In this document: in pieces, positions 2,042-64,000 of the stretch
Position numbering within the stretch: position 1 is the first letter of the stretch
Layout of the letters: each line of letters starts with the position of its first letter
NCBI GenBank assembly: GCA_021432605.1
Contig: MU271144.1
Span: 372,001-436,000, forward strand
DNA length: 64,000 bases
Origin: Coniochaeta sp. PMI_546
Lineage: Eukaryota; Ascomycota; Sordariomycetes; Coniochaetales; Coniochaetaceae
Direction of reading: 5' to 3'
Translations under genes and position numbers: made by a program
The notes under the pieces: generated by a model
The model's database searches: none
What the model saw: only the letters and a program-made list of their open reading frames with translations
Told to the model about the DNA's origin: nothing

Positions 2042-2173
2042 AGCTGCGTGGCGCAGTGGAAGCGCGGTAAGTCTCTGAAACTCACTTGTGATAGACTCGA
2101 ATCATGAACTGACTCTCTCTCCTCAGCCGGGCTCATAACCCGGAGGTCCTCCGATCGAAACGGAGCGCAGCTA
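2042..2173 (+). tRNA. Initiator tRNA-Met (CAT) with a 60-nt GT-AG intron between positions 26 and 27
   Basis: Removing 2067-2126 leaves a perfect 72-nt eukaryotic initiator tRNA. The acceptor AGCTGCG (2042-2048) pairs fully with CGCAGCT (2166-2172). The D arm is 2051-2065, and the anticodon arm CCGGG-CTCATAA-CCCGG is 2127-2143 with anticodon CAT at 2134-2136. The variable loop is AGGTC. The T arm carries the initiator-type loop ATCGAAA (2154-2160), with A54 in place of T54. A and B boxes are intact, and T runs follow. The anticodon arm is contiguous, so there is no canonical 37/38 intron. The initiator identity rests on the A1:U72 pair, the three G:C pairs in the anticodon stem and the T loop. 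Confidence 0.93.
2067..2126 (+). other. mRNA-type (U2-like) intron inside the initiator tRNA gene
   Basis: The 60-nt insert begins GTAAGT, carries a fungal branch-point match CTGAC (2109-2113), then a pyrimidine run and a terminal CAG. The branch A lies 14 nt from the 3' end, as in this genome's protein-coding introns. It sits between G26 and C27, not at 37/38 where eukaryotic tRNA splicing endonuclease acts. Excision restores an exact tRNA. Confidence 0.85.
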
Positions 2174-2177
2174 CTTC

Positions 2178-2190
2178 TTTTTGTCTTTTT
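2178..2190 (+). terminator. RNA polymerase III terminator of the initiator tRNA gene
   Basis: Two runs of five T (2178-2182 and 2186-2190) start 5 nt after the discriminator base. This is the usual Pol III termination signal and back-up. Confidence 0.8.
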
Positions 2191-19698: not shown

Positions 19699-21727
<2,029 letters not shown>

Positions 21728-21846
21728 ACGTACAACATCAGGGATTCCCCGGTGGTCACCCACCCGAGTACTAGTCTGACGATTACTGGTTTATCTAGGG
21801 GAGAGCGGACGGGATCCCGAGTTTTCCAGTATCTATGGTCGTACGT
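21728..21846 (-). rRNA. 5S ribosomal RNA, single dispersed copy
   Basis: The 119-nt minus-strand sequence begins ACGTACGACC and ends GTTGTACGT; these termini pair over nine positions to form helix I. The loop and internal promoter region keep the 5S consensus (GGAAAAC, CCCGTCCGCTC, GGGTGGGTGACCACC, GAATCCCTG). Dispersed single 5S genes are normal in filamentous ascomycetes. It differs at several places from common types, as expected for 5S subtypes, but the helices remain intact. Confidence 0.9.
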
Positions 21847-54553: not shown

Positions 54554-57500
54554 TCAGTACCTATACTTAATGATTAACCACAGACCATCAAACCCGCCGG
54601 ACTCGCCCTTAATCTTCAACGTCCAATCTGTCATCTGCATCTCATTCCCACTGCTTACCGCAGCGACTAGATCCTTGAGCGTCATACCCGCCGTACCCTC
54701 CTGGAACGTCGCGGGCGGCGCATCCCCCGGCTGAAGGGTGAGAGACACGTCTTGCGGCTCCAGCTTGCCTCCCTTGGCCACCAGGACCATATCGGTAGCC
54801 AGGATCTTGTCCGGCGCCACGTGTTTGGTAAAAACGGGCAGACGCTCGTACAACTTCCGCAACTGCATCTCCCTCGACGGATTGGCGCCCCCAAAGGCCG
54901 CGTACCACTCGGCAGCGAAGTCGGCGCGCAGGTCGACCAGCGTGAACATACCGCCCTCGGACGCCTGCTGGTCCGTGGACTTGATCCACTCAGATACCGT
55001 TTTGGCCGCGATGTCGCGCAGCTTGTCGCCGCCGTCCAGCGACGTGTAGCGGATGGTCAGCACGACGTCGGAGATGGTCGAGTAGTCGAACTGCCGGAAC
55101 CCGTCCGGCAGTTCGAAGCGCCAGCGGCTGATGACCCCGGCGCCCTCGAACGGGCTGTACCGCTCCGTGATCTGCCCGCTCGGGTCGTGCCTGCCGTTGT
55201 CGTTCTGTGCGCTGCTCAGCACCACCGACGAGATGGGCACCTGCGTCACGGCGAAGCGGTCGTCCTCGCCCGGATCGCCGATGCCGCCGCCGCCGCTCCC
55301 ACCTTCTGTCGACTTGGGGTAGTCTGCCACCGACGCGGCTCGCGGCTTGGTCCGGATCTCGTGGCTCAGAAGGCGCAGCGTACAGCCTATGGATGTGAAA
55401 GGCCCTACTACGCAGGGGATTGTCACCGACACGGAGGTGATGCGCCGCATGTAGTGGCCTGGAAAGTCCATGTCGAAGAGGATCTCGGGCAGCTGCAGCT
55501 CGAAGGCGCCCGTGTCACGAAACTCGACCAGGGCCAAGGGAGCCCACTGCCGTACCGACACGGCCTTGATCGCCTCGAAGTCGTAGCCCAGCTTGGACTG
55601 GTAGGCTGCCTCGAGCTGCTTGAGGCTCAGGTACAGCTGCTCGCCTGCCAGCAGACCGTCGCGGGAGCTGTTCCAGTAGCCGACCTTGACGAACTGCTGC
55701 GCCGACCCCGCGCCGCTCCCGGGTGCGGATGGCCGCTCGAAGTTGTACGCCTTTTCAGCGCGCTTGGCGAGGTCGAAGGCGAGGTCGTACGCCTGCTTGT
55801 AGAGCGTCTTGGTTGTCCCCTCCATCCAGGCGTACAGCTCTTCGTTGGTGTACTTGCTCCGCAGAAACTCCTCTACCTTTTCGGCCTGCTCCACCACGGA
55901 CTCTTGGTTGGTCACCTCCTTTTGTGCGGTTGTGACTCGCATCTTCTGCACTGTGATTTGCCTATCGATGTTCTTCAGCTCGAATCCAGTGCTGTTGGCT
56001 TGGAGCACGCGGTCCTGCAGCTGACGCAGCAGCGAAGCTCTCCGAGCCGCGTTGGCCGACGACGCGCTCAGCCACCCGGTATAGATCTGGAGCCCCCGTG
56101 CCGCTGCCGAGGCTGCGTTGCCCATGTTCACGCCGCCCCAGTAGAGACCCGCGCCGGCACCCATGGGCTTGGCGGCTGCCTCCGTCGTCGGCCATGCGTG
56201 GAAGATTGCTGCCAGGGTCTCGACACCACCGACTAACAGGTTCCACTTCAGCGCTGCGTCGGCCTTATCCACCTCCTCCTTCTCGCTGGGTATGAGCATC
56301 AAGTCGTCGCTCTCTGTCGGTGCCTCAAGCGAGGCATTTGGGATCTCGTTGAAGTCGTCCACCTCGGTGGGCGCGCCATCCGTTACGCCCACCAGGGATT
56401 TGAAGTATTGCAGACGATAGACGGGTCCTTCGCGGCTCCGCTGGATCTGTGTCAGGGTCTCCTGGGCCTCTTCATATTGGCGGTTCTTGATATCCAACAC
56501 GAGATTGCTCATGAGCGTCTCGTGGGTGGTGCGGAGGACGGCGAGTGCCTCGGCATCGCGCTTCTCTTTGATGGTGAGGAACTGGCTGCCCAACGACTTC
56601 AGCTCGGAACAGAGCTCCAGAGCCTTTTGCACGAGGAGCAAGAACCTGTAGTTCGGAATCGGCCCGCTGATGTCAAGTAGCACCGAGTCCAGACTGATTC
56701 CCTGCGCCACTGCCTGGACCAGCAGGCCCGGGTCGATTGGCGGGTCAAAGAGGGGCAGATTCCGGACGACGCCGTTGATGTCCATGCAGTGGCGGATCTT
56801 GAACAGCCGGTCGTCGATCGTGTCCCGCAGCTCGCGAAGCTTGGGATTGTCTGGAATGCAGAAATATAGCGACGTCGCGAAGCCGAAGATGTTTGCAAAG
56901 CCAATCACGCCGTTGGTGCCGCCGATCGGGAGGGACGTCTGGTTCGAGAATGGGAACTCGACCTCAAGCTGCACGACGGCATTGCCAAAGGCATCCCACT
57001 TGTCGAGGAGTGACATGTATGTCTGCGGTTTCTTCTTGCCTCGCATCGGGATCTTCTGGCCCCTGGGCCCGTAGACGTGAGATGCGATGACGTAGCACTG
57101 GATGGCGTTTGGGATCGTCTCCAGACTGTTCTGGCGGAAGTAGTAGTCGCCGTACGCTATCATGATCTCGATGTACTTCATGGCAATCCACTTCATGTAA
57201 GCTACGGGCCTCGTCCGCGCTACTGCGTGGGGGGAGAATGGGTTGTCGCGCCATTCTGTGATCTCGTCATTCGGTGTTTGCGGTTGAAGCTGAAGAAATG
57301 TCGCCTCCAGGCTGTCTTTGGCATCTGTGTTGGCCAGGGCTTTGAAGGGGTAGAACTTCCAGTACTTGGAATTATCTCCGTCTGGAGCCGTTGGATCGGC
57401 AATGGCGCTGGGATCAAAGATCTTGTGGCAGATGCTCAAGGCGTCGTCGAACTGCTGAGCTTTCAGGAGGCTATCAATGAGCGTCATCGGTGCGTGGAGG

Positions 57501-60500
57501 CCCAGCTCCCAGTTGTAGATGGCGTTGGGGCTCTTGCCCTCGTGGAAAGAGTTGCCTGACGAGCCGAAGGGATCATCCTCTACGGCACTATCGGCCTGCT
57601 CCGAGAGGGTGGTAAAAGATGCGAAGAGATCGTCGATCTTGCTCGACGCCGTAATGGATTTCAATAGCGGATCGATGAAGGTGTGGTTGAATGTGCGCTT
57701 ATAACTATCATTGACCGAGACGACGGACTTGGAACCAGCAACCTGCTTCTTGTCGTACACAACCATCGGCAGCAACCCGTAGTATTGGGGTACGTTATTG
57801 CTGTCATCGGCCTGAAAGCTGTGCATCTCCATCTTGTCGTTGTTAGTCTTGAAGTGGAAGATCGTCGTTGTGCTGGTGCCGAGACCGCCTGAATCCTGGA
57901 CGGCATGGGACACACCCCCATTGGAGAAGATGAAGTGGCCGATGATGATGTCGCTTCCGTGCCATATGTCTATGTTGATTTGAGGGTCCCCGCCGCTTAC
58001 ATCGGCATTCCGGGGGTTCATCTGATACAGTGTCTGGTCTGGCAGCGGGTACACGTCGAGCGTGTGGCCTGCTTCCCTCGGGTTCGGCACTTGCACTGCT
58101 TTCGCTCGGTGTCTCAAAGAGTCGCTGGACAGCTGCTTCTGCGTCCACTTGCCGTTCTGGTATATCGTGTAGCCCAGTCTGATCTCCCACACAGGAATCG
58201 GGGGATACTGATTCAAGCTATCGCCCCCGAGTCGGTCTTGCATTGTCTTCGAATCGTCACCCTTTCGCGGTATGCTCTTTTGGACCATCTGAAGGAAGAA
58301 TAGGATCGGCTGCGCCTGCCAAATAAAAGGTGAGACGAAGGAGCCAGAGCCGAGAAGCTTGCCATTCTCATCTTCCACGTCGAATGTCGGAATGTCGACG
58401 GGAATCTTTACCCACGGTGTCCAGAGACCATCAATTGTGTAGTCACGACTATACCAGTGGTATGGCGCATTCATCCGGCGCGCCGCAATGTGTACACCGA
58501 TCTTCTTGCTGTCAGGTGTCTGGGTATCTCTCTGTAAGAACAAACCGTAGACCTTCATGTTTGCAACTTCGGTAACGGCGTAAATATAGCTCTTCAGACT
58601 CTCAACAGCATTAGCCAGACTCACGTCCTTCTGCAGGAGCGCTGACTCCAAATCGAGGAAGAACGGTGTCTTGTCGTCTCGGAGGCTCGGGACTATCCAG
58701 TTTTCCGGGTAGAGGTAGACCTTACGGTTCGCCTCCCATATTCTGTACCTCTTCATCCACTCCCACCTGGTACGGCTGATCCGATCGCTCTCCTTGACGC
58801 CAACTTCGGCCTCGAGTCCGAGCAGGCATCGCTGGACGTACAGCTGAACAGTGGAGATTGCCTGCTTGATACGACTGGTCTGCAGACAAGAGCTCATTTG
58901 ACAATCGATGAAGAAATACTCAAAGAGGCCATCCGCGTCAACAACAATGCCTGTCTTGACTAGAGATTCCTCCACGAGCAGATACGCCACCAAGGCATCT
59001 CTCTGATGAATTCGCAGCGTGTCGAAGAGGGATTTCGCCGCTTGCTCCCACTCCGTCGCCGAATACCTCGCCCGTAGCGCGTTCTTAAGGGCTTCCGACT
59101 GCGACACTAGAGCTGTGTAGCCGCTATTGGACACCCATACGGGCTTCGACCACTCGAACATCGCTTTGACGTCAAGGTTGACTTTCTTGACGAATTCGAG
59201 TGCCCGTTGGAGTGTGACCAGCACGACCTCATTCTTGAAATGCGATACTTCGACACTATTCCACCCTGTAAGGATGTCTCTAACTCTCGTTGCGTCCCAC
59301 GACGGCGCGAGCTTGGCAATCTGCGGCACGACATCCTGTCCCGCCGACGAATCCGTAGCTGCCCACTTGAAGAGGTCAATGAGCCGGAATTTCTGCTTGG
59401 GCAATTTGTTGCGAAGAATGGTGTAAGCATTGATTCGTTTCCAAAGATTTAGATCCGGGGTCTCAAGCGTGACATCATTTTGACCTGATGGGACGAAATC
59501 TATGATGTGCTCGTGGAAGTAGATGATCTCATCCAGAGAGAGCTCGAAACCCTGGATGAGTATCGACAGCTTTTTGAGTTTTGCGAGCACCCCTTGCACA
59601 GAGTTCGATGACAGAGAGGGAAGCCAAGCACTGCTGACGATGGCAGTCATCGGGCTCGTAGTCGTACTCCACGACAGCTGAGATGAACTAATTCCGTCGA
59701 GAGCCACCTTATACAACGTGCCCGAAGCCATGGGAAAAGGAGCGGAAGACCAGAGATTAGATGGATCCTCTGACTGAGTGGGAAATGGAACGGCGACATC
59801 AGATATCTTCATGGGCAGTGGCTGAGTGTCGCTAGTCACAGTGAAGGTGAAGGTATCGGTCGTTGGCGGGATCAGAAGCCCTTCCCAGGTGGTTGTTGCG
59901 ACTTGATCAGCAGACCTTAGTTCCAGAAGATTGTCGATGGCCGTCTTCTCAGGGCTCACTCGCACAGCGGACAACAGGTACGAGGCAATCTCTAGCGGAA
60001 GCTGAACAGAGTCTGCTACGGTACGTTGGATCATGCTCTTGGCCAGCGAGGCTCGAAGGATAGGGAGGAAGTATTTGAGGAAGTATAGAGCTTTCCCCTT
60101 AGCAGTATTTTCCGAGTCTGGCTGGAGTAATGTCGGATTCTCTTCGGCGGGGAAGAAGGTAGCGAGGGTCTGGCTGTAGAACTTGACCGCCTGCTTCTGT
60201 AAGCGCTCGATTGCCGCTTTCCACAGGGGGTGATTAGAGAGTGCCAGTGCGTCGTTGGTCTCATCAAGACTCATTATACCGGTGACGGTGAGCTGAGCGG
60301 TCGGGGGCGTGGCGGTCTTATTCTCAACGTACTTCAGCTTGGCTGGAATTGTGCCAACCATTATTAAGTTGCTTGGTGCATTAGTCGTAAACTCATACTG
60401 TCCGTTGATGAACTGTGCGATCTTGGCGGCGAGCTCTGGGGCGAAAAATAGGGCCAGCTTTGTGGAGAGCAGTTCGGGCAGGGCGATGATGCCATCTTCG

Positions 60501-63500
60501 ATATCCTTTGCAGACACATCCGGATGCTGTACGTCAATGGCGAGAAGATTGTCAAGTAATGTCTTAGTCAGTTTCAAGGTGGTTGTCTGTGTAGGAGCAA
60601 GAGGTCGTGAGATGTTGTCCTGATCACGCAGGACGTAGTTGACTTGTTCGAATGTGAATCCGGCATCGCTTATCTGCGTCCATGTGTCGAGGAACTTGAA
60701 CGTGACAGCTGCATTCTCGAAAATATACCCAAATACCACTAGTATATCTGCTAAGAGCGGAATGCGGATTCGCAAAATGCCAGCTAGCTTGGCCCAACGG
60801 AACAATGCAGAGACATTTTTGATATTGAGGTCGTCCTCCACCTTGAATATGTCCCCCTTTGCTAGCAGAAATGTGACATCGTCCGGTGACAAACGAAGTG
60901 CTGCTTGAATGACGGTCAGATGTTGAGTAATCTTCTCAGCACCAGCCAGGTAGTTTCCATTCTCGTCTCCTTGGAAGACGGGATCCAACCGGACTAGATT
61001 ATGAGTGAGGAATGTCTTGGCGTAGAGGCTGCCTTCACCTCTGGTGGGTATGTCGGCCCAGAAGGTTAGCAGAACGGGCAGCTGAAGGCCAGTGAAGTCA
61101 AGCAGCTTCTTGACCGAGACGAGCTGTTGTATAAGTTCCGGCGTGATATCTCTCGCTCCCGCTCCTGCTTCTTTATCAGGGCCGTTGCCACCGCATACGT
61201 CGCTATCCTTGTCCGATTCTACCTCGCTTTCAGGGTCGTCACAGTCATCGTCGGGACTGGGAGTCACCGGACTGGTTCCAAGCCCCGAAATAGCGACATC
61301 GGTCTCCTCAATGCTCCACGCCATCTTATTCTTCAACCGCAAGAAGCGCTGCATTCGGTCATATTCTTCGGAGGTGACCGGTGATCCGTCCAAGTGGATG
61401 AGTCGAACTTTTTCAATGTTACACGTATCCTGTGGCGGAGTATACGAGGCTCTTTTGGGCGACCTCTCCCCGTGCGAATAGTTGTAGTAGTAGAGGCGCC
61501 CTTGGCTCCTCTCGCCAGCCGAAACAAAGCCGATCCTCTTGTTCCAGACTCCCACATCTTCATCGGCCATGTACAGTGTTATCTCAAAGGACTTATCCTG
61601 CCACTGTTTGTAGAGAGGTTTGCCTGTGTTGATATCCACGATAATGCTGTCGACGCCGACTATGCCTACGGCTTCGCCGTCGTCGCCCACAATACTTCCA
61701 TCATGGTCCAGTGTCCCAATGAGCTGTGAGGACTCGTTCACCGAGGGTTCGGTGACATCCGTGGCTGCCAATGAGAGTGATTCGGAGCTACGTGCGACTG
61801 CTGACATGCGCTCTGCCCAGAGCCGGCCGCGAACTGGAAGACGCGGGCCCTCGCCCGATTCCAGGACGATGAGCTTCCCGACCTTCTCAAACCAGCACCA
61901 CACCCAACACCTCCATTCAGACTCACTCTGACAGTGGCAATCGCAGGGATTCTTCGTCTTGCCGCAGCCGCAACCACTCTGTCCTTTGCTCCCTCCACAA
62001 TTTCCTGTGATGCCCGCGCATGGATCTGTCTGTGCCTTTGCCCACTCGATCAGGGGGATCAGCGGCTGAGCTAGACACAAGAACCACACGAGTCGGCTGT
62101 ACTTGCGCTGCTTGCTCGTGTGGCTGGGGTGGACGAGCAGCGACAGGAACCGATAACTGAAGCGGATCTTCTCCATGGTCACGAGGGCCTTGCCCGTGGG
62201 TAGGTTCGGATTGATGTATTTGGTCTTAAGAAGGGAGACTAGGTCCGTGTATTGAATGCCGGTCCGCTTGAGAAACTGGGCTTTGACCCAGGTGAGACCC
62301 GTCTTGTTGGTCTCATCTAGGTCTTGCATTGCGGCCTCGGTCTTGTACCCGTAATACTCCCAGGGTTGTCTGAGCTTGATTTTTGCAGCGTATCGAGATG
62401 CGGACCTCGAACCACAGTCATGGCACGCGCATGAGTGCGCGTGACCCGAACACTTGGGTTTGAAAAAGCCCTGCCTGGTAAGAATGATGTACTCTTCCTG
62501 TGAAATAAGATTGAACTCGGCGCTGTAGGCTCTTATGGCCGCCGTGTCGGTTTCAGCCGTCTGGCTCTCAGATGTGGTCAGGTCTGAATTCGCCTCCACT
62601 TGAGAAAATACTTCGAGCATCTCAGCTCGGGAGGTTTTCAGAAATGTGAAGAACACCCTCATGACGTCAAGGGCAAAGTTATACGGGAGGTTGAAAGGAT
62701 AGACCCAGTCTCTTAGAATCTCATAGGTGGCCAGATCCGTGTGCTGCGGCTGGCAGAGGAGTTCCCCGCTCGTCTCGCCGTCTACGTTGTATGCCTTTAT
62801 GGTTGCGTGGACGACGTACGACTCCATGACCTCCAGGGCCAAGTCGATGTACGGAATCAACGTGTTTGTGTTCTCGCACGTGAGTTGAAGACACGCGAGG
62901 TCGGGGCGCCGTCGAAGAAGCTGCTCTAGCTGTGTTCCTTGCACATTGGATGGATTTGATAGATTGTGATTATCAGGTCGCAGGTTATTATGGCGCAAGA
63001 ACTCGAGAAGCTCGACATAGTACGACGCCGGGCTGTAGACCGAGGTGCAATCCGAACAGTCGCAGTAGTCCAGAGAACCAAAGAGCTTTTCGAGGTTCAC
63101 TTGCGTTTTCGCATTGCTGGCCGCGGCATCGAAAGCCTGGACCCGCCTCTCGACTCCGAGCTTGCTCGCCCCTCCGTCGATGACTCGAAAGCCAGAGCCC
63201 CGAACTGTTTGCAGAGCGGACACGAGAAAGTGCTCATTCCTGGCTCTCGACGCTACTGCGTGCCGATGGATGATCAAGGCTTGCTTCTCACTCCCAAATT
63301 CTTTCTCGAAACTAGACACGAAGTGCTCCTCCGGCATGTTGGAGATCTGGTGCGCGGACGTCACGCCTCGCTTAACCAAGACTGGCAGTGCATCCGGAGC
63401 AGGTACCAGCGCCTGTATCCGTTGCAGGGTCTTGAGGTCCGCTTCCACAGTTGGCCTCGCATCAATGCTGAGATTTTGGAAGGCCTCTGAGCTGCTCAGC

Positions 63501-64000
63501 AGGCTCGATATGGGGGTAGTTCGGATGTTGAATTCGGGTTTGTCGTCAAATATCCTCGGCGCCGCAAGATGGGACTCGTGGCTAAGAGTTATTTCGTCGT
63601 CTACTATCATCTTTTGCATAGTCGCTGTGGGCTCTGCTTCAAAGATTCTCTGGCGCAACCGCGCTACCTGCGCTGCCAAAGCAGGCTCCAAAGAAGCATC
63701 ATCACTACGGACGGCGAGCGGTGAGGCCGGACCACGTGCAGAAGCTCTGATAAGACGCTTCAAGTCGTTCTTCCCCAAGCTCAATGCAACATCACGGGTG
63801 CTGACGGCTTCTGGGCAAGTGCTGTGGACTTCCTTGAGAACGCTAGCGTCGTCCTCAAATATGTCGGCTAGACGATTGATGAGACGGAGCTTGTCCGTCG
63901 TGAGCAACGTTGTGCTAACAGACGCTGGGTCACTTGCCACGACCGACTCATTCCATTCAGTCAGTGCCGCATCAATGTCGCCGTTGGCAGATTGTAAGGA
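54554..64000 (-). CDS. Tc (ABC) insecticidal toxin TcA-subunit homolog, 5' partial
   Basis: One uninterrupted frame of 3,148 codons runs from the right edge to the stop at 54554; the true start is outside. In bacteria TcA forms the pentameric receptor-binding and translocation channel of Tc toxins. Visible blocks in order are an N-terminal helical shell region; the conserved Cys-containing segment that leads into the SPASYY motif (about 63000-63070); two Cys-rich insertions (about 62405-62455 and 61925-62035); a neuraminidase-like and receptor-binding middle (about 57100-60000); a long alpha-helical, coiled-coil pore segment (about 55800-56600); and a C-terminal TcB-binding-type beta domain (about 54560-55500). 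No intron, frameshift or premature stop is visible. TcB- or TcC-like partners are absent from the window. Fungal homologs of unknown function are known, and this one looks intact. Activity is not shown. Confidence 0.85.
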   Translation of the reverse strand, partial: SLQSANGDIDAALTEWNESVVASDPASVSTTLLTTDKLRLINRLADIFEDDASVLKEVHSTCPEAVSTRDVALSLGKNDLKRLIRASARGPASPLAVRSDDASLEPALAAQVARLRQRIFEAEPTATMQKMIVDDEITLSHESHLAAPRIFDDKPEFNIRTTPISSLLSSSEAFQNLSIDARPTVEADLKTLQRIQALVPAPDALPVLVKRGVTSAHQISNMPEEHFVSSFEKEFGSEKQALIIHRHAVASRARNEHFLVSALQTVRGSGFRVIDGGASKLGVERRVQAFDAAASNAKTQVNLEKLFGSLDYCDCSDCTSVYSPASYYVELLEFLRHNNLRPDNHNLSNPSNVQGTQLEQLLRRRPDLACLQLTCENTNTLIPYIDLALEVMESYVVHATIKAYNVDGETSGELLCQPQHTDLATYEILRDWVYPFNLPYNFALDVMRVFFTFLKTSRAEMLEVFSQVEANSDLTTSESQTAETDTAAIRAYSAEFNLISQEEYIILTRQGFFKPKCSGHAHSCACHDCGSRSASRYAAKIKLRQPWEYYGYKTEAAMQDLDETNKTGLTWVKAQFLKRTGIQYTDLVSLLKTKYINPNLPTGKALVTMEKIRFSYRFLSLLVHPSHTSKQRKYSRLVWFLCLAQPLIPLIEWAKAQTDPCAGITGNCGGSKGQSGCGCGKTKNPCDCHCQSESEWRCWVWCWFEKVGKLIVLESGEGPRLPVRGRLWAERMSAVARSSESLSLAATDVTEPSVNESSQLIGTLDHDGSIVGDDGEAVGIVGVDSIIVDINTGKPLYKQWQDKSFEITLYMADEDVGVWNKRIGFVSAGERSQGRLYYYNYSHGERSPKRASYTPPQDTCNIEKVRLIHLDGSPVTSEEYDRMQRFLRLKNKMAWSIEETDVAISGLGTSPVTPSPDDDCDDPESEVESDKDSDVCGGNGPDKEAGAGARDITPELIQQLVSVKKLLDFTGLQLPVLLTFWADIPTRGEGSLYAKTFLTHNLVRLDPVFQGDENGNYLAGAEKITQHLTVIQAALRLSPDDVTFLLAKGDIFKVEDDLNIKNVSALFRWAKLAGILRIRIPLLADILVVFGYIFENAAVTFKFLDTWTQISDAGFTFEQVNYVLRDQDNISRPLAPTQTTTLKLTKTLLDNLLAIDVQHPDVSAKDIEDGIIALPELLSTKLALFFAPELAAKIAQFINGQYEFTTNAPSNLIMVGTIPAKLKYVENKTATPPTAQLTVTGIMSLDETNDALALSNHPLWKAAIERLQKQAVKFYSQTLATFFPAEENPTLLQPDSENTAKGKALYFLKYFLPILRASLAKSMIQRTVADSVQLPLEIASYLLSAVRVSPEKTAIDNLLELRSADQVATTTWEGLLIPPTTDTFTFTVTSDTQPLPMKISDVAVPFPTQSEDPSNLWSSAPFPMASGTLYKVALDGISSSQLSWSTTTSPMTAIVSSAWLPSLSSNSVQGVLAKLKKLSILIQGFELSLDEIIYFHEHIIDFVPSGQNDVTLETPDLNLWKRINAYTILRNKLPKQKFRLIDLFKWAATDSSAGQDVVPQIAKLAPSWDATRVRDILTGWNSVEVSHFKNEVVLVTLQRALEFVKKVNLDVKAMFEWSKPVWVSNSGYTALVSQSEALKNALRARYSATEWEQAAKSLFDTLRIHQRDALVAYLLVEESLVKTGIVVDADGLFEYFFIDCQMSSCLQTSRIKQAISTVQLYVQRCLLGLEAEVGVKESDRISRTRWEWMKRYRIWEANRKVYLYPENWIVPSLRDDKTPFFLDLESALLQKDVSLANAVESLKSYIYAVTEVANMKVYGLFLQRDTQTPDSKKIGVHIAARRMNAPYHWYSRDYTIDGLWTPWVKIPVDIPTFDVEDENGKLLGSGSFVSPFIWQAQPILFFLQMVQKSIPRKGDDSKTMQDRLGGDSLNQYPPIPVWEIRLGYTIYQNGKWTQKQLSSDSLRHRAKAVQVPNPREAGHTLDVYPLPDQTLYQMNPRNADVSGGDPQINIDIWHGSDIIIGHFIFSNGGVSHAVQDSGGLGTSTTTIFHFKTNNDKMEMHSFQADDSNNVPQYYGLLPMVVYDKKQVAGSKSVVSVNDSYKRTFNHTFIDPLLKSITASSKIDDLFASFTTLSEQADSAVEDDPFGSSGNSFHEGKSPNAIYNWELGLHAPMTLIDSLLKAQQFDDALSICHKIFDPSAIADPTAPDGDNSKYWKFYPFKALANTDAKDSLEATFLQLQPQTPNDEITEWRDNPFSPHAVARTRPVAYMKWIAMKYIEIMIAYGDYYFRQNSLETIPNAIQCYVIASHVYGPRGQKIPMRGKKKPQTYMSLLDKWDAFGNAVVQLEVEFPFSNQTSLPIGGTNGVIGFANIFGFATSLYFCIPDNPKLRELRDTIDDRLFKIRHCMDINGVVRNLPLFDPPIDPGLLVQAVAQGISLDSVLLDISGPIPNYRFLLLVQKALELCSELKSLGSQFLTIKEKRDAEALAVLRTTHETLMSNLVLDIKNRQYEEAQETLTQIQRSREGPVYRLQYFKSLVGVTDGAPTEVDDFNEIPNASLEAPTESDDLMLIPSEKEEVDKADAALKWNLLVGGVETLAAIFHAWPTTEAAAKPMGAGAGLYWGGVNMGNAASAAARGLQIYTGWLSASSANAARRASLLRQLQDRVLQANSTGFELKNIDRQITVQKMRVTTAQKEVTNQESVVEQAEKVEEFLRSKYTNEELYAWMEGTTKTLYKQAYDLAFDLAKRAEKAYNFERPSAPGSGAGSAQQFVKVGYWNSSRDGLLAGEQLYLSLKQLEAAYQSKLGYDFEAIKAVSVRQWAPLALVEFRDTGAFELQLPEILFDMDFPGHYMRRITSVSVTIPCVVGPFTSIGCTLRLLSHEIRTKPRAASVADYPKSTEGGSGGGGIGDPGEDDRFAVTQVPISSVVLSSAQNDNGRHDPSGQITERYSPFEGAGVISRWRFELPDGFRQFDYSTISDVVLTIRYTSLDGGDKLRDIAAKTVSEWIKSTDQQASEGGMFTLVDLRADFAAEWYAAFGGANPSREMQLRKLYERLPVFTKHVAPDKILATDMVLVAKGGKLEPQDVSLTLQPGDAPPATFQEGTAGMTLKDLVAAVSSGNEMQMTDWTLKIKGESGGFDGLWLIIKYRY

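Follow-up and report, generated by a model that had tools for sequence, protein, structure and literature searches.

A predicted mRNA-type intron in the initiator tRNA genes of Coniochaeta sp. PMI_546

The split initiator tRNA gene in the window

Within the 64,000-nt stretch of DNA analysed here (the window), from Coniochaeta sp. PMI_546 (Sordariomycetes, Coniochaetales), positions 2042-2173 read as a 72-nt initiator tRNA-Met gene carrying a 60-nt insert after tRNA position 26. The gene is made up of the following features.

2042..2066, plus strand: exon 1, 25 nt (acceptor 5' strand, D arm and G26), from sequence and fold; identical in five of five copies
2049-2059, plus strand: A box, within exon 1, from sequence
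2067..2126, plus strand: predicted mRNA-type (spliceosomal) intron, GTAAGT...CAG, 60 nt, at the boundary of D stem and anticodon stem; position common to all five genes found
2067..2072, plus strand: predicted 5' splice site GTAAGT, preceded by G; invariant in five of five copies
2109..2113, plus strand: predicted branch site CTGAC, from sequence, branch A at 2112, 14 nt to the intron end; the sole CTRAY of the intron
2124..2126, plus strand: predicted 3' splice site CAG; CAG or TAG in five of five copies
2127..2173, plus strand: exon 2, 47 nt (anticodon arm with CAT, variable loop, T arm with A54, acceptor 3' strand); identical in five of five copies
2152-2162, plus strand: B box, within exon 2, from sequence
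2178..2182, plus strand: T5 run, likely Pol III terminator, 5 nt 3' of the gene; a T5+ run in five of five copies

Exon 1 covers tRNA positions 1-26 without position 17. When the exons are joined, the minimum-energy fold of the 72 nt is a cloverleaf of -32.1 kcal/mol in which all 21 helix pairs are Watson-Crick. The marks of eukaryotic initiator tRNA include A1:U72, G29-31:C39-41, and a CAU anticodon, and sequence and fold place all of them in the joined product, along with A54 in the T loop. The available text of PMC3978253 lists A54U55C56 as an initiator tRNA feature. The initial annotation had described a perfect initiator tRNA once a 60-nt insert at 26/27 is removed, and its coordinates prove exact, as do the GTAAGT, CTGAC, and CAG that it read in the insert. 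Cutting at 25|26 or at 26|27 gives the same spliced product, and only the 26|27 register yields GT-AG, so that the position it assigned is the right one.

Elsewhere in the window, positions 54554-63940 on the minus strand hold a single open frame of 3128 codons.

Initiator tRNA genes across the genome

Searching the Coniochaeta sp. PMI_546 assembly (33.5 Mb in 24 contigs, with match counts as lower bounds) with the window gene, we found at least five initiator genes, all of them split at 26/27 and dispersed over four large contigs: C1, C2 (two genes, including the window copy), C3, and C6. Patterns for single arms, with one to three mismatches allowed, lead to the same loci: across the genome, the T-arm pattern gave 13 matches (5 exact and 8 with three mismatches, against 10 for the reversed control), the D-arm pattern 18 (5 exact), and the anticodon-region pattern 14 (5 exact), and the exact matches of all three fall on these five loci only. 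The joined 72-nt query gave ten matches at E <= 10, lying at the same five loci, and each of them is broken after nucleotide 25. No uninterrupted initiator gene was found in the assembly with this query or with the D-arm, anticodon, and T-arm patterns. It had been supposed from the window that this might be the sole initiator gene type in the genome, and several uninterrupted genes elsewhere had been named as the observation that would mark the window copy as a pseudogene; what was found in the assembly agrees with the supposition and is the opposite of that observation, five split genes that are uniform in intron position and splice signals. Sequence search also places GCTCATAACCC at 17 sites, and the surroundings of the 9 on the plus strand of the locus were inspected; the pattern and joined-query searches above address the same question. 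Viral contigs and contigs of prokaryote genomes gave no match, a result uninformative on distribution, as fungi are not expected there and the search had no positive control.

Standard tRNA finders handle these genes poorly. Run without introns, ARAGORN calls no tRNA in the window; run with introns, it inserts spurious introns into the anticodon loop and labels the five genes as Gln, Arg, Glu, Arg, and Cys tRNAs. At E up to 0.5, the Rfam tRNA model matches none of the five loci, and in the tRNA census none of the tRNA matches listed (at least 62, with 63 of 897 candidates scored) lies on them. The miscalls of the one and the misses of the other may explain why such genes are easily overlooked. 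Among other tRNAs of the genome, the same intron was sought with two D-loop layouts followed by GTAWGT: the first layout recovers the five initiator genes only, and two matches of the second were set aside as not tRNA-like by eye. Elongator tRNA-Met was not found in the genome with two anticodon-region patterns, and ARAGORN calls no tRNA in any of the nine one-mismatch matches of its pattern; a 37/38 intron could hide this gene.

Splice signals and alternative explanations

The five introns, 60, 56, 60, 56, and 58 nt long, carry a common set of signals. All have the donor G|GTAAGT, in agreement with the fungal consensus G|GTRAGT, and all end in YAG (CAG in two, TAG in three). Each contains a single CTRAY, which is CTGAC in four and CTAAT in one, with 10-14 nt separating the branch A from the end of the intron. 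Shuffled intron bodies place a CTRAY 10-14 nt from the end in about 3% of cases each, giving 2.8e-8 for all five if independent, a figure to be taken as a guide only because homologous copies are not independent. Of the five introns, that of the window copy has the pyrimidine tract of the initial annotation and that of the C6 copy has it approximately; the remaining three are A-rich ahead of the acceptor, with no pyrimidine-rich stretch, which counts against a spliceosomal intron, as does the C that follows the acceptor. Going by excerpts of PMC5677156, fungal introns can do without the polypyrimidine tract, and YAG|R makes up 94% of acceptors in Fusarium, so that the class with C next is rarer. 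The same excerpts give coding introns of this other sordariomycete a median of 57 nt and CTRAY in 91%, and the initiator-gene introns match them in length (56-60 nt), G|GTAAGT, CTRAY, and YAG. These published introns serve as our yardstick because a crude scan of the window for the genome's own coding introns was visibly noisy and lent the spliceosomal reading no support (14 candidates, GTAAGT donor in none, TTTT in 5). Avoidance of T runs as a Pol III constraint was considered and rejected: TTTT occurs in none of the five introns, but shuffled sequences behave alike (P 0.53).

Five split genes could still be decoys or pseudogenes if working initiator tRNA came from uninterrupted genes missing from the assembly, and there is some room for such genes, the search counts being lower bounds in an assembly of 24 contigs whose completeness is not stated. 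However, the exons are identical at 72 of 72 nt across the five dispersed copies, whereas the intron bodies between the splice signals have strongly diverged, with 46-69% pairwise identity against 47-53% for shuffled bodies. They form two subgroups, the window and C6 copies in one and the other three in the second, with about 63-69% identity within and 46-55% between subgroups. Pseudogenes would have drifted, and gene conversion strong enough to hold the exons at identity should also have made the intervening introns alike. Identical exons across old copies with diverged introns therefore argue for purifying selection on the exons and against pseudogenes. Neither drifted exons nor a lost promoter or terminator is seen in any of the five: the A and B boxes are intact throughout, and a T5+ run follows each gene at a distance of 5-9 nt. 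Moreover, with five copies on four large contigs, zero uninterrupted genes appear even at E <= 10. The copies thus look old and under selection as tRNA, and we regard the decoy explanation as improbable.

Two further explanations accept the genes as working and differ in how the tRNA is made. In one, the insert is an ectopic endonuclease-type intron of the kind found in Cyanidioschyzon merolae or archaea, cut by tRNA splicing endonuclease and then sealed by tRNA ligase. That nuclear tRNA introns of eukaryotes sit at 37/38, as the initial annotation had stated, is too strict a rule, since ectopic introns occur in some eukaryotes (parts of PMC4090602 and PMC3978253), those of the red alga C. merolae being endonuclease-type introns (PMC4090602, in part). 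The pathway is also presumably present for other tRNAs of Coniochaeta, given that ten further tRNA loci in the genome carry short introns of 14-29 nt according to ARAGORN. However, the initiator-gene introns are well above that length, their junction lies at 26/27 in five of five copies and not at the canonical 37/38, and invariant GTAAGT, CTRAY, and YAG play no part in the endonuclease pathway. No bulge-helix-bulge (3-nt bulges around a 4-bp helix spanning the junctions) is present in either of the two registers compatible with the spliced product; the central helix has only two of four or one of four pairs, which makes this route very unlikely. In the other, the tRNA would be derived from longer Pol II transcripts that are spliced like any mRNA and then trimmed. 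This would do away with the puzzle of an uncapped substrate, but the intact internal boxes of all five copies and the T runs shortly downstream of them fit Pol III genes, and we consider a Pol II origin extremely improbable.

We therefore favour, as by far the most probable reading of the sequence, a genuine cytoplasmic initiator tRNA gene with a predicted U2-type spliceosomal intron. RNA polymerase III would transcribe the gene, directed by the A and B boxes within it and stopping at the T run. U1 would then recognise G|GUAAGU, U2 would recognise the CURAY branch site, and the intron would leave as a lariat with G26 joined to C27. With the insert placed between D stem and anticodon stem, the cloverleaf helices can, by computation, form before splicing. 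In the minimum-energy folds, all 21 cloverleaf pairs are present in three of the five precursors; the other two keep 17 of 21, with the D arm replaced, which counts against this expectation.

Upstream of the genes, the window copy on C2 and the C3 copy have GTAAAATAACGCA in common about 25-35 nt before the start, a possible Pol III upstream element.

U6 RNA, consequences, and known systems

Other small RNA genes of the genome were surveyed as well, and two of them are U6 copies.

C2, about 3339185-3339414, plus strand: U6-like gene with two predicted mRNA-type introns (55 and 64 nt), from Rfam and sequence
C3:77062-77161, minus strand: second U6 copy, intronless; Rfam 63.1 bits, above the cut-off
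C6:1586775-1587054: signal recognition particle RNA, family match end to end, without large insert
Window 21727-21846, minus strand: 5S rRNA gene, dispersed single, full length, without large insert; 91.9 bits

In the U6-like gene, intron 1 reads GTAAGC...CTAAC...TAG, lies before GATACAGAGA, and has a B-box-like GTTCGAATCCC inside, and intron 2 reads GTATGT...CTGAC...CAG and follows GCCCCTG; these signals are of the same kinds as those of the initiator-gene introns and offer the spliceosomal reading a parallel within the genome, although the intronless, higher-scoring copy stands against taking it too simply. The U6 gene of Schizosaccharomyces pombe likewise has its B box inside the intron. 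Piece 1 of the U6-like gene was assigned by eye, and pieces 2 and 3 score 27.9 and 23.0 bits with Rfam, both below the cut-off of 44. In its core, the gene fits the U6 consensus in pieces 2 and 3 save for one extra T, and the intronless copy departs from the consensus in the conserved core. Either of the two may be the working U6, and the intronless copy may be that gene, a variant, or a retro-copy.

In standard teaching, nuclear tRNA introns belong to the tRNA endonuclease, and an mRNA-type intron in a Pol III RNA is a rare feature found in U6. With no uninterrupted copy turning up in the assembly, Coniochaeta sp. PMI_546 would require the spliceosome to make initiator tRNA and hence to start translation. 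On the sequence evidence, we think it likely, with only slightly less confidence than in the intron itself, that every cytoplasmic initiator tRNA of this fungus passes through the spliceosome, and that all initiation requires a Pol III transcript to be spliced in the manner of an mRNA. If so, a tRNA is an obligate spliceosome substrate, splicing gains direct control over translation initiation, and the genes offer a natural assay for how Pol III transcripts that are neither capped nor polyadenylated are spliced. Should the intron-bearing U6 gene be the one that works, splicing and translation initiation would be bound in a mutual loop, because U6 itself would also need splicing. Standard tRNA finders would misname such initiator genes, and more fungal cases may be hidden.

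An intron in an initiator tRNA gene has reportedly been described before, in work by Biniszkiewicz in 1994; that intron is said to be bacterial and self-splicing, and the likeness ends with the gene that carries it. Searches of an open-access library, with subscription papers and tRNA databases outside their scope, brought up no account of spliceosomal introns in nuclear tRNAs, though one may have been published, and the available text of a 2014 tRNA intron review contains zero occurrences of "spliceosom" (PMC4090602). Excerpts of a 2017 paper name U3 snoRNA and U6 snRNA as the only small structured RNAs so far known to be often interrupted by introns (PMC5832005). The precedent in U6 snRNA of yeasts, invoked by the initial annotation, is sound: mRNA-type introns are described in U6 of S. 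pombe and other fungi (PMC10484740, in part), and Canzler et al. 2016 on U6 introns is cited in the accessible portions of PMC5832005 and PMC9518982.

Thus, the initiator genes resemble U6 in having an mRNA-type intron in a small structured Pol III RNA. However, U6 belongs to the spliceosome itself, and reverse splicing near its catalytic nucleotides is the proposed source of its introns (PMC10484740, as excerpted), whereas a tRNA is no spliceosome component. Fungal U3 introns are likewise canonical introns in a small structured RNA (available text of PMC5832005), but U3 is a snoRNA and the product here is a tRNA. With canonical eukaryotic tRNA introns the genes have in common an intron in a nuclear tRNA gene; those introns lie at 37/38 and are cut by the tRNA endonuclease, in contrast to the 26/27 position, GT-CTRAY-AG signals, 56-60 nt length, and lack of a bulge-helix-bulge found here. 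The ectopic introns of C. merolae and archaea share a position away from 37/38, but they use bulge-helix-bulge motifs and the endonuclease (PMC4090602, in part), whereas the initiator-gene introns of Coniochaeta carry the signals of mRNA introns.
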